Virus record (IMG/VR): IMGVR_UViG_3300033388_001796
Span: 1 to 26,834 of that record
Source of the DNA: a virus
Reading direction: 5' to 3' (one strand)
DNA: 26,834 bases
The notes beneath the pieces are model-generated. The model worked only from the letters and a program-made list of their open reading frames with translations. It was not told the DNA's origin and did not search any database. The translations under genes and the position numbers were made by a program. This document shows, one piece after another, positions 14,596 to 26,027 of the stretch (the stretch's first letter is position 1; each line of letters begins with the position of its first letter).

Positions 14596-16197
14596 TTAAA
14601 ATGGGGAGTTAAACTCAGGAACATCAATAGCATCAAACTCCTGAGACTCTATTAAATTATTAGCTACTATATACTCCACAAACTCCTCCATTACTTTATT
14701 AGCATAAGTAAGAAGATCTAAGACACCATCAGTATTATCTCTTCTTAGAGGGTTAAAGGATATAATCTGTGCAAAACTAGCAGCCTTAGCCGCCTCTTCT
14801 ATAAATACTTCTCCCTTAGCAAGAGACTTAAACATCTCTAGAATACGGGAGTTCTTAGATCTAGTACCTGAATAGATAGGTACAGCTTCTATACCTTCTA
14901 TCTGTAACTGCTGACATATAAAATCAAACCAATATAGTAAGGAGTATTGGTAAGCATTAGCTTCTACAGCTATAAGTCTACAGTTCTTAGTGAGTGCGTA
15001 GTTAAGAGCTGTACGTATGGTGTCTCCAGGAGATAATCTATCTTCTACTAGCTCCATTAAAACTGGGTAGCCATTATGTACTTCAAAGTAACCTACTGAT
15101 ACTTCATCTGCTCCTAACTTGTCTGTAGCAGGATCTATTATGATGAAGTTACCGCCTGGAATATCTCCCTCACTATAAGGAGAGTCAGGGAGTTTGGATA
15201 AATCTACTAGATTGTTTTGACTAGCATTCTCATCATTAAGTACCTCTGAGTAGAAGATCTCAGGCTTACCCATAGAGAGATCATTCTCAAACTCATTCAT
15301 TAACTGGGCTATAGGCTGCAAGTCTTCCCATAAAGAAGTACCATCAGCTAGTATGCCACCAGCTATAAACTTAGTCCACTTATTATTAGATTTAAGCTTT
15401 CTTAGTATCGAATGTTTTGTAGGGTACATATTAGCTACAAATAAGAACATACAGCCATGAGGAGACTTAGCCTTCATAGCTGTACCTATCATCCAATCTT
15501 CTAGCTTATTAGATTGTACCTCTGAGTCAGCACATTCTCGTGACTGTATATCCTCAAAGATCATTACATCAGGACGTTCGTTCTTTATATTTAAGCCACG
15601 TAAGGAAGTCTCAGCACCAATAGCAGCTATAGTAATGTTTCTACCTCTAAAGCCAAACTTCTTAACAGCTTGTGTATCCTTCTCGATACCTAAGCGCCAG
15701 TCACCAAAGACTTTCTTTATGTTTGGTTCTTCTAACATATCTATCACGTCAGATAGAATGTTCTCTGCAAGTGATGCCTTAGCAGATATAATTAATATAA
15801 ACTTCTTATTAGTGAAGAGTAAGCAGTACACTATAAATAGCTTAACTAGTGTAGTCTTACCAAAGCCACGAGGTAAGCCTAATGCAAGCTGGGGAAAGAT
15901 TCTCTTCTTATGAGCAAAACCTAAGAGCCAAGTCCATACAGATATAAATACAGCAGGGAAGTTAAACTTAAAGACTAAAGGCATTACTAGTGCAGATAAG
16001 AAGTTAAGGTCTAACTTAGCAGCCATCTGCACATCTTCTGCACTAACTCCTATATCTATTACATCTAACTCCTCAGAAGTCTCCGTAGTATCTATAGGAG
16101 TAGTTTGTAAGGTAGGAGGTAACTGTCCTGAGTCTGGGCTATCTTCTCCTGTTAGCTTACCTAAGAGAGTATCAGGAGGTAGGTCATCTATACCCAT
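14596..16197 (-). CDS. terL: Terminase large subunit (533 aa)
   Basis: Both domains are visible. ATPase: Walker A GLPRGFGKT (107-115, Lys114), a Walker B VMIFED (211-216) and a coupling region FLFVANMYPT (251-260). Nuclease (RNase H-like): FIIIDPA with Asp355, LIAVEAN with Glu412, and NTDGVLDLL with Asp490/Asp494. The full length is normal for the family. It pumps DNA through the portal and cuts concatemers, with the small subunit at 16376-16936. The start (16197) lacks a clear Shine-Dalgarno but lies 1 nt after the stop of the 54-aa gene, so translation is probably coupled. An 11-bp tandem repeat spans this junction. Confidence 0.92.
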   Translation of the reverse strand: MGIDDLPPDTLLGKLTGEDSPDSGQLPPTLQTTPIDTTETSEELDVIDIGVSAEDVQMAAKLDLNFLSALVMPLVFKFNFPAVFISVWTWLLGFAHKKRIFPQLALGLPRGFGKTTLVKLFIVYCLLFTNKKFILIISAKASLAENILSDVIDMLEEPNIKKVFGDWRLGIEKDTQAVKKFGFRGRNITIAAIGAETSLRGLNIKNERPDVMIFEDIQSRECADSEVQSNKLEDWMIGTAMKAKSPHGCMFLFVANMYPTKHSILRKLKSNNKWTKFIAGGILADGTSLWEDLQPIAQLMNEFENDLSMGKPEIFYSEVLNDENASQNNLVDLSKLPDSPYSEGDIPGGNFIIIDPATDKLGADEVSVGYFEVHNGYPVLMELVEDRLSPGDTIRTALNYALTKNCRLIAVEANAYQYSLLYWFDFICQQLQIEGIEAVPIYSGTRSKNSRILEMFKSLAKGEVFIEEAAKAASFAQIISFNPLRRDNTDGVLDLLTYANKVMEEFVEYIVANNLIESQEFDAIDVPEFNSPF

Positions 16198-16375: not shown

Positions 16376-16936
16376 CTACAGTAGTGCTGCTAACTCTGGG
16401 TTATCTAAATCTGGCTCTGATAACTCCATTACCTCTTCTACCTGAGCCTCTATTGGTGTGGGTACTTCCACAGTCTTAAGTAAGTCACCAGATTGAATAG
16501 TACGTAAGTCCTGATCACCAGTCTTAATAACTTGGTTATGAATATTAGTAGTAAAGTTCTGTACAATCTGAGCAGGTAGAGTAAGCTGTACTATATTCTG
16601 CTGATTAACAATGTTTTCTAAGGAATCCGTACCGCGCCTTTTTGCACCATTAACTACTTGTAAAGCTTTCATTATATCTAGAGGTCTTATCAGTAAGGCA
16701 GCATTAGACTTAAGCCTGGCAAGTAATGTGTCCTCTAACTCATCATAGTTCCTGTCTCTCTGAGAGTGCTTAGATAAGGCTTCAAACTTAAGCTCTGTTA
16801 CCTGCTGTGCAAAGCTTTCATCAGATAGAAGTTGTGATATATAAGAAGGTGATACTCCTAAGGCTGAAGCAACTGCTTCTTGTGGTACACCTGAGCCAAG
16901 TAAGGACAGGGCTTTATCTTCTGTTAAATTACTCAT
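16376..16936 (-). CDS. terS: Terminase small subunit-like protein (186 aa)
   Basis: The N-terminal helix-turn-helix is clear (SGVPQEAVASALGVSPSYISQLLSDE, residues 15-40), as in terminase small subunits that recognise packaging sites. Next come helical segments (EDTLLARLKSNAALLIRPLDIMKALQVVNGAKRRG, 67-101) suited to oligomerisation, then a beta and Gln-rich stretch and an acidic C-terminus. Position immediately upstream of the 54-aa gene and terL supports the call. It could alternatively be a transcriptional regulator sitting at the head of the late operon. The start (16936) has an AGGAGG about 8-10 nt upstream. Confidence 0.72.
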   Translation of the reverse strand: MSNLTEDKALSLLGSGVPQEAVASALGVSPSYISQLLSDESFAQQVTELKFEALSKHSQRDRNYDELEDTLLARLKSNAALLIRPLDIMKALQVVNGAKRRGTDSLENIVNQQNIVQLTLPAQIVQNFTTNIHNQVIKTGDQDLRTIQSGDLLKTVEVPTPIEAQVEEVMELSEPDLDNPELAALL

Positions 16937-17882: not shown

Positions 17883-18614
17883 ATGAACAATACAGATAAT
17901 ACAGATAATAACTCAATCTCTCATGTGTCTATTACTGAGCGTGGTTTAGATGCAGACGGTAACTTACAATTCCTATCTTATGACGCTAAAGCACCGTTAG
18001 TTGAGTCTGGTAAAAGAACTATTAAACTAATGTATAAAGTTAATACTAAGACAGGAAAAGCAGCTGGAATTAATAGCTGTCTCTTAGTTAGCCCAGTTAC
18101 TAAAGATGAGCTTACTGATGATGTACTAAAGTCTCTTACTCCACATATTATTAACATGATAGAAGCAGAACAAGATAAGATAGCTAAAACTGCTCATGTT
18201 TCGGGTGTCACAAGTCTGGAAGTTGACGCTCTTAGTATTAAGTCTGTTATTAGTAGTCTAGAAACAGTAGCTCAAAGTACAAGAATGAATAAGGAAGTTA
18301 TAACTAGTTGGTTCACTGATAATCTTGCTGATACATTAACAGTTCTATTTGCTGATAAGTTGGGAGTATCAGAAACGCCGACTGAAAATGATACTGCTAA
18401 CATAAATAGATTCTTAGATGTTTATAAGACTAAGTTTAACGGTTTAGCCTCTAATCTTGTTAGTTATCAGAAGGAAGAAGCAGAGAAGTTATTAGAAGCA
18501 GTAGAGAAGTGTGAGATTAACAAAGACTCTGATTTAGTATCAGGTAAGATCATAGAAAAGCTTACTAAAATGGCTAATCCAATGAGTAGCACAGAACTTA
18601 TGGATTTGTTATAA
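17883..18614 (+). CDS. Unrecognised 243-aa protein, own transcription unit
   Basis: The start at 17883 is preceded by an AAAGGTATAAT leader, and a strong rho-independent terminator follows at 18646-18683. The N-terminus is Asn/Asp-rich (NNTDNTDNNS) and disordered, then comes a beta region (VSITERGLDADGNLQFLSYDAK, RTIKLMYKVNT, residues 15-54) and helical segments. The C-terminus is a charged helix followed by MSSTELMDLL. Layout and size resemble the 247-aa protein at 25284-26027: disordered N-terminus, mixed core, then a KF-x-60 residues-E-L-L end. Both could be structural relatives, for instance DNA- or protein-binding factors made in quantity. No family is assigned. Confidence 0.8.
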   Translation: MNNTDNTDNNSISHVSITERGLDADGNLQFLSYDAKAPLVESGKRTIKLMYKVNTKTGKAAGINSCLLVSPVTKDELTDDVLKSLTPHIINMIEAEQDKIAKTAHVSGVTSLEVDALSIKSVISSLETVAQSTRMNKEVITSWFTDNLADTLTVLFADKLGVSETPTENDTANINRFLDVYKTKFNGLASNLVSYQKEEAEKLLEAVEKCEINKDSDLVSGKIIEKLTKMANPMSSTELMDLL

Positions 18615-18645
18615 GATCAGTTACTAATTAGTTCATAACCCTTTA

Positions 18646-18683
18646 AACCTGCTTAGTAGTTTATGCTATTAAGTGGGTTTTTT
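18646..18683 (+). terminator. Rho-independent terminator after the 243-aa gene
   Basis: AACCTGCTTA (18646-18655) pairs fully, with two G-U wobbles, with TAAGTGGGTT (18670-18679) around a 14-nt loop, followed directly by six T (18678-18683). It isolates the 243-aa gene from the repeat-rich region. Confidence 0.85.
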
Positions 18684-18779: not shown

Positions 18780-18847
18780 TTGTCTGTTTGTCGGTTTGTC
18801 CATCTCGACAAAATGCCAAAATGCCAAAATGCCAAAATGCCAAATGC
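18780..18847. repeat. In-phase octamer array, block 1
   Basis: Cut every 8 bp from 18780 the DNA reads TTGTCTGT, TTGTCGGT, TTGTCCAT, CTCGACAA, then four perfect AATGCCAA units (18812-18843). The first three share TTGTC; the fourth carries its inverse, GACAA. Same octamer types recur in block 2 (19152-19183). Confidence 0.9.
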
Positions 18848-19013
18848 GTTTTATGGGTCTATTTGTGTGCCTATATTTCTCCCTTCTCTCTTACTAACTT
18901 CTTATGTATTGTATGTATTAGTTTCTATCCTTATGTATTTATCTCTAGTTGTATGTATGTTTTATATCTCTCTAAAAATAACACACCCTCTAAATATAGG
19001 CATAGAGAGACAC

Positions 19014-19037
19014 ATAAGTCTATAAGTCTATAAGTCT
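19014..19037. repeat. Tandem octamer ATAAGTCT x3
   Basis: Three perfect copies of ATAAGTCT lie head to tail at 19014-19037 between the two octamer blocks. Period is again 8 bp but the unit is unrelated. Confidence 0.9.
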
Positions 19038-19112
19038 ATATACATAGATAGCTAGTTATATCTATAGGGTATAGCTAGCTAAGTAACTAGTACGGTATAT
19101 AGTAGATAGTGC

Positions 19113-19141
19113 TTGACATATTATGGCATGTATGAGACTAT
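19113..19141 (+). promoter_or_regulatory. Possible promoter of the rightward helicase operon
   Basis: A perfect -35 TTGACA (19113-19118) is followed after 17 bp by GACTAT (19136-19141), a poor -10. If used, the transcript would begin near 19148, just before octamer block 2, which would then lie in an operator-like position. Weak evidence. Confidence 0.4.
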
Positions 19142-19151
19142 ACACAGGCTA

Positions 19152-19183
19152 TTGGCATTTTGTCAGTTTGTCGGGCGCGACAA
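19152..19183. repeat. In-phase octamer block 2 (inverted relative of block 1)
   Basis: Cut every 8 bp the DNA reads TTGGCATT (the inverse of AATGCCAA), TTGTCAGT, TTGTCGGG and CGCGACAA. Within it TTGTCG (19168-19173) and CGACAA (19178-19183) form a 6-bp hairpin with a 4-nt loop. It carries the same module types as block 1. Confidence 0.88.
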
Positions 19184-25283: not shown

Positions 25284-26027
25284 ATGAATGATGTAACTGA
25301 AAACCCAGTAGAAGAAGTAGAAGACGTAGAAGCTAATGACCCACGTGATACTTCCACCTCAGAAGCTACACCAGCACCTACCCAAGAAGAACTTGCTGGT
25401 ATTTGTGCAGATATTAAAGCTAACTATAACTCTCAAGTTAATGTTAAGCCTGTTGTCTTCCGCTTTAAGACATCTAAAGATGCTGATGGTGTAGAACTTA
25501 AACGTGACGCTCTTGAGCTTCCTATTCCTTATCCTTCTGTACAGGGTATCGTAGATATCTTAGAAGCTGGTGGTAAAGACTTAGAACTTCTGCAAGATGC
25601 GGTAGATTCTATCATCACAGCTCAAGCACGTATTATGATCACTGACGATCATGGTATTAATGCAGTTAACTTAGATACTTCTAAGTTGTCTTGGTCTGCT
25701 ATTGCTAACATGCCTAAAGCAGAACGCTCTGGTGGTGGTATTGCTAAGGAAGTTTGGGAAGACTTTGCTAACGACTACATTAAGACTATGCCAGAAGTTA
25801 CAGGTAAGGGTGTTGAACCTATTACTCGTGCGGCTAAGATCTTGCAAGGTAAGTTTGCATCTGTTAAGACTAACGTAGAAGTTATTAACTTCTTGCTTAC
25901 ACAGATTGCCTTGTATGTAGAGAACTCTAAGCGTGTTGATGAGTTCACATCTTGTGTAGAGTTCTTAGTTGATAAAGCTGATAAGCTTGTTAACACTACA
26001 CCTGAAGAACTGTTAGCTAACCTGTAG
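25284..26027 (+). CDS. Unrecognised, probably abundant acidic protein (247 aa)
   Basis: The gene is a one-gene unit between a perfect sigma70 promoter and a terminator, with a strong ribosome site. Its codon use (more GGT, CGT and GTT) is unlike the operon genes and typical of high expression. The product has an acidic disordered N-terminus (ENPVEEVEDVEANDPRDTS), a mixed core (VKPVVFRFKTSKDADGVELKRD, residues 53-74, then a helical region) and a C-terminal helix pair ending PEELLANL. The 243-aa protein has a similar layout. A ssDNA-binding or core virion/host-takeover factor is possible, but no motif confirms this. Confidence 0.8.
   Translation: MNDVTENPVEEVEDVEANDPRDTSTSEATPAPTQEELAGICADIKANYNSQVNVKPVVFRFKTSKDADGVELKRDALELPIPYPSVQGIVDILEAGGKDLELLQDAVDSIITAQARIMITDDHGINAVNLDTSKLSWSAIANMPKAERSGGGIAKEVWEDFANDYIKTMPEVTGKGVEPITRAAKILQGKFASVKTNVEVINFLLTQIALYVENSKRVDEFTSCVEFLVDKADKLVNTTPEELLANL

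Follow-up and report, generated by a model that had tools for sequence, protein, structure and literature searches.

Two facing arrays of in-register octamers form a two-armed site on the putative early promoter of a phage and its relatives, and this site is real and conserved. It was found in an IMG/VR phage fragment of 26,834 bp (the whole stretch is hereafter called the window), whose large terminase is ~30% identical to TerL of Fredfastierviridae such as PaMx41. The late genes (terS, terL, portal, and capsid) are arranged leftward and the early genes rightward (Table 1). From the sequence we consider the chances about even that both blocks are one regulatory element, comprising an operator at the rightward early promoter and an inverted auxiliary array upstream of it.

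Block 1 contains three TTGTCNNN, one CTCGACAA, and four AATGCCAA units, running TTGTCTGT TTGTCGGT TTGTCCAT CTCGACAA followed by AATGCCAA four times, and block 2 reads TTGGCATT TTGTCAGT TTGTCGGG CGCGACAA. The first-pass annotation had located these octamers correctly, except that it extended block 1 to position 18847, whereas its eight octamers end at 18843. The modules, their common phase, and the inversion that it described also hold, but what it saw as three types of module, ordered oppositely in the two blocks, is better stated as a single word, TTGKCNNN, which accounts for all twelve octamers in one or the other orientation and in register. TTGKC covers both TTGTCNNN and TTGGCATT, as variants of a single octamer; the equivalence of the two words is supported by the nearest relative, L002, in which a TATGCCAA unit occupies the array position held by CGCGACAA in the window. 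The arrays had been judged hard to explain by chance, and the data agree: when two inverted arrays at pitch 8, each with three or more units, were sought agnostically, the window scored 44, and no such pair was found in 60 shuffles of the whole window under a first-order dinucleotide model.

Table 1. Features of the window around the two octamer arrays
Feature	Position	Strand	Remarks
TerL, large terminase subunit	14596..16197	-	query used for finding relatives
TerS, small terminase subunit, N-terminal helix-turn-helix (HTH)	16376..16936	-	weak HTH_3 match and weak PHROG terminase match
g17883, 243 aa, family not known	17883..18614	+	homolog immediately left of block 1 in 31/34 array loci
Terminator-like hairpin, between g17883 (17883-18614) and block 1	18645..18680	+	
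Block 1	18780..18843	.	eight in-register octamers, FFFRRRRR (direct reading)
Inner segment, 308 bp	18844..19151	.	left half pyrimidine-rich, right half purine-rich
-35 box TTGACA, inferred rightward early promoter	19113..19118	+	exact TTGACA here in 19/34 loci, TTGAC-like in most
-10 box GACTAT, extended -10 TG (19133-19134), spacer 17	19136..19141	+	position common with relatives
Block 2	19152..19183	.	four in-register octamers, FFFR (direct reading); just 3' of inferred -10
First conserved gene of the rightward early operon, 153 aa	19306..19767	+	downstream of block 2; synteny with relatives

Relatives were collected with TerL (59 loci) and TerS (80 loci) searches, the contigs of the two sets being partly shared. 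In L002 (TerL 82%) both blocks lie at the same place as in the window, block 2 reading TTGGCATT TTGTCAGT TTGTCGGC TATGCCAA, and most relatives have two facing arrays with an exact 8-bp pitch, ~300 bp apart, at that same place. A strict array test on 49 distinct loci was positive in 31 at pitch 8, no other pitch tried (6, 7, and 9–12) gave more than 7 positives, and none of the 46 control regions, taken from stretches beyond terS, was positive. Several array definitions were tried and the strict one carries the weight. As some of the 31 positives are simple repeats (e.g., L223, L224, and L248) and four loci (L057, L053, L230, and L252) are positive by a looser test only, "about 30" is a fair count. 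The first-pass annotation had proposed looking for the octamer arrays in related phages; some 30 relatives carry arrays of this layout, and the absence from all close relatives that would have told against the site did not occur.

The layout is kept while the word diverges. Array words across the phages include TTGKC, TGGCA, AGGCA, (A/C)GTCT, AGTCAA, TGTCAA, GGGATA, CAGGAT, and TTGGTT, and pitches other than 8 were seen in L038 (7), L222 (9), and Jamesmcgillvirus (~10). In the region upstream in L209, a long pitch-9 tandem array of TGATAGTTG type outscores the octamers. The 8-bp pitch had been taken to favor proteins arrayed at a spacing of their own, a view borne out by the pitch being retained and the sequence not. 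The arrays look like binding sites, quick to evolve, of a protein by which the phage exerts control; that the words diverge within a constant layout suggests that the specificity of the binder may change in step with its sites, much as phage immunity regions do. The contig of L002 was independently among the matches listed when viral contigs were scanned for the raw TTGTC-N3 pattern, a scan too unselective to serve as evidence. DNA searches against isolates gave distant helicase matches only. Repeats of CAAGGT/ACCTTG, likewise inverted, lie in this intergenic region of the isolates PaMx41, PaP2, 119X, 20Aug470, FBPa48, and Neko.

Block 2 coincides with a predicted promoter. In the window, TTGACA, a spacer of 17, and the extended -10 TGAGACTAT are followed closely by block 2. 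The -10 is weak, and a generic promoter scan, which did not list this promoter, was not above chance for the window alone. Across loci, strong promoter-like matches on the + strand of the inner zone numbered 18, where ~9 would be expected per strand for the region as a whole, and strong rightward sites cluster beside block 2. When the loci were aligned on block 2, a TTGAC-like -35 with a 15–19 bp spacer was found at most 45 bp from the block in 32/34 array loci, giving a sigma-70 type promoter at or over block 2 by consensus match; this count used relaxed criteria set after the first hits had been seen and is therefore descriptive. The comparison of exact hexamers is the cleaner statistic: TTGACA is present at block 2 in 19 of the 34 loci and in none of them at the mirror site, in the middle of the spacer, or in the right flank. 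Block 1 is without a promoter of its own. The 153-aa product of the first early gene had no match in a Pfam search. In L209, two small cysteine-rich proteins with CNNC-type repeats are encoded 3' of the early promoter, 499–1131 bp to the right of the block 1 start.

The segment between the arrays measures 307 ± 55 bp over 35 loci. Its left half is pyrimidine-rich in 34/35 and its right half purine-rich in 23/35, a mirror-like composition outside what an operator explains. C or G tracts are found near the arrays in many of the loci (the window and 34 related ones).

The earlier proposals for the site were an iteron-type origin, a looping operator, and a recombinase site. The looping operator fits best, because block 2 lies on a conserved sigma-70-like promoter and block 1 is inverted ~300 bp upstream; the origin is less supported and the recombinase site unlikely. 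Block 2 would provide direct 8-bp sites on the sigma-70 promoter driving the rightward early operon, placed, depending on the phage, within the -35/-10 spacer or from the -10/start region onward, and block 1 would be the inverted partner array, in a role that is conjectural. A phage-encoded protein may bind the arrays cooperatively; bridging of the two protein-coated arrays would then form a loop, and the loop could repress or time the early promoter. Episomal persistence and superinfection resistance have been reported for Shea, an isolate of the related genus Jamesmcgillvirus (PMC13348215), and a repressor would explain both. Against an operator, no classical repressor of the ribbon-helix-helix (RHH) or HTH kind was recognized: Pfam matches to HTH or RHH families numbered zero among the 36 proteins scanned (26 of the nearest relative and 10 of the window), a search that a very divergent RHH protein could escape.

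Seven protein families are present in all 12 genomes compared, namely a large virion protein, DNA polymerase A, portal, TerL, a DUF3987 protein, a PD-(D/E)XK nuclease, and TerS. TerS is the sole core protein with an HTH_3-like match, which is weak and under the curated cut-off, and we infer that it is the leading candidate for binding the octamers. A terminase subunit acting as an early-gene repressor would be unusual. The partial Mantel correlation of the word with TerS given TerL is 0.32, and a TerS recognition-helix window ranks 23rd of 1178 by partial correlation, with many windows of g17883 and of the TerS C-terminus ahead of it. In the TerL tree, the sister pairs L055/L020, L230/L246, and L053/L261 differ both in the word and in the second helix residue of TerS. 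The AGGCA word pairs with a helix Ala in two non-sister TerL lineages, and AGTC words are found alongside Val, Thr, or Pro. Exceptions are Pro with AGTC-type words in L040, L057, and L221 and Ala with TGGCA in L240. As this covariation is confounded by phylogeny and linkage, the indication that the recognition helix tracks the word is suggestive only. Covariation of whole proteins with the word, assessed on 10 genomes, failed to set any protein apart from the others.

The strong correlation of g17883 with the word is likely to reflect linkage. We rejected g17883 as a universal binder, given that the near-complete genomes G003 and G016 keep the arrays without it, a finding that we count in favor of the operator. 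Its AF2 model had no match in the PDB. It and g25284 (window positions 25284–26027) are possible distant paralogs: the g17883 profile has the protein of the g25284 region as the next-best match in G002 and proteins of similar size in G022, G003, and G018, at E values of 0.16–0.75 only.

With TerS as the leading candidate, a role in packaging becomes possible, and a packaging site is the main rival of the operator, one that we regard as doubtful. Here TerS would sit on both inverted arrays and terminase would cut between them, leaving the early promoter just inside the genome end. The presence in all 12 genomes of a TerS with an HTH_3-like HTH fits such a site, as does its apparent covariation with the word, weakened as this is by the exceptions above. 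The linear records of PaMx41, PaP2, and 119X start within ~1 base of each other, between the arrays, but these starts may copy the PaP2 convention, and 20Aug470 was deposited as circular and the FBPa48 record starts elsewhere. Rough inspection of contig ends revealed no evident pile-up between the blocks. Shea virion DNA is reported to be terminally redundant (PMC13348215) and the pac site of SPP1 spans promoters (PMC4737164); on the other hand, the site is mirror-symmetric while packaging is directional, and in known TerS rings the neighboring HTHs are about one DNA turn apart (PMC4737164), a spacing that fits the 10-bp pitch of Jamesmcgillvirus and not 8 bp. The two functions might also be combined, TerS binding the arrays, shutting the early promoter, and marking the start of packaging, with word and recognition helix coevolving. 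We think this rather improbable; if true, TerS alone would link genome packaging to the close of early transcription.

A bidirectional replication origin, which we rate as improbable, would make the arrays iterons for an initiator on either side of an unwinding region, in the manner of archaeal ORB origins. The mirror layout, the switch from pyrimidine to purine, and the C/G tracts beside the arrays would suit an origin, and so would the DUF3987 protein, which is found in 12/12 genomes and was modeled (L181 5359–6663, genome G001) as an MCM-like AAA+ helicase with Foldseek matches to MCM (best E 5e-8). Its C-terminus is winged-helix-like (helix-helix-helix-strand-strand) in this model of modest confidence (pLDDT 63), so that it might perhaps be an initiator-helicase, but the gene is distant from the arrays. 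The inner segment is not enriched in A+T (0.62 versus 0.60 and 0.64 in the flanks), and an origin does not predict a promoter conserved at block 2 and lacking at block 1. GC skew, suggested earlier as a check, gave a mixed outcome: for 5 of the 10 genomes the global minimum is no more than ~3.3 kb away from the arrays, and the pattern is inconsistent between genomes. As a sub-case of the operator, the arrays could be bound by an unrecognized small repressor of MetJ/omega/CopG (RHH) type unrelated to TerS, which we find improbable to much the same or a slightly greater degree. The boxes bound by MetJ are 8 bp long and in tandem, and the heptads bound by omega are 7 bp long and may be direct or inverted. 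The array pitch of 8 in most loci, and of 7 in L038, agrees with such a protein; the absence of RHH families from the 36 scanned proteins, and of RHH_1 from the 16 genomes searched, does not. Finally, the arms of attP sites resemble inverted arms of short repeats, and the arrays could be the arm-type repeats of an integrase attachment site. We consider this very improbable: no core site was seen, and an isolated member of the family is reported to be non-integrating (PMC13348215). We dismissed integrase attachment, and hold a recombinase site unlikely, because no tyrosine integrase (PF00589, covering the tyrosine family only) was found in 20 related genomes with the locus.

The combination of a fixed architecture with a phage-specific word provides a natural series of protein–DNA specificity switches. 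The arrays are a concrete candidate control site for a phage group that has received little study and that has among its isolated kin a reported pseudolysogen in which no lysogeny genes are predicted. They also offer a direct test of the small terminase as a transcription regulator.

Among known systems, tandem or inverted boxes at a 7–8 bp pitch on a promoter, as present here, are those of RHH-repressor operator arrays. Like the met boxes of MetJ and the heptads of omega, our octamers are short boxes of less than a helical turn, in register on a promoter, in direct and inverted copies; they differ in forming two inverted arrays ~300 bp apart, with a word that varies between relatives and no RHH protein found in 16 genomes. 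Promoter-proximal and distal sites for one inferred protein recall lambda OL/OR and lac O1/O2/O3, although here the sites are octamer arrays of 3–8 units and both binder and loop are putative. The pac sites of P1 and SPP1 are similar in having sets of repeats to either side of a putative genome end, promoter overlap (SPP1), and terminase genes nearby, whereas the present site has mirror symmetry, an 8-bp pitch, and cleavage that is at most putative. Archaeal ORB origins with G-strings (PMC4010727) likewise have inverted repeats around a segment, G/C tracts, and diversity of the word between replicons, in contrast to the short octamers in tight register, the lack of AT enrichment, and the promoter on one arm seen here. 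The Fredfastierviridae PaMx41, PaP2, and 119X, which are Pseudomonas phages, have a homologous TerL (30%), a similar gene order, and, in the matching intergenic region, inverted CAAGGT...ACCTTG repeats separated by 312 bp; their repeat pitch is ~10 bp and less regular, compared with 8 in our arrays.
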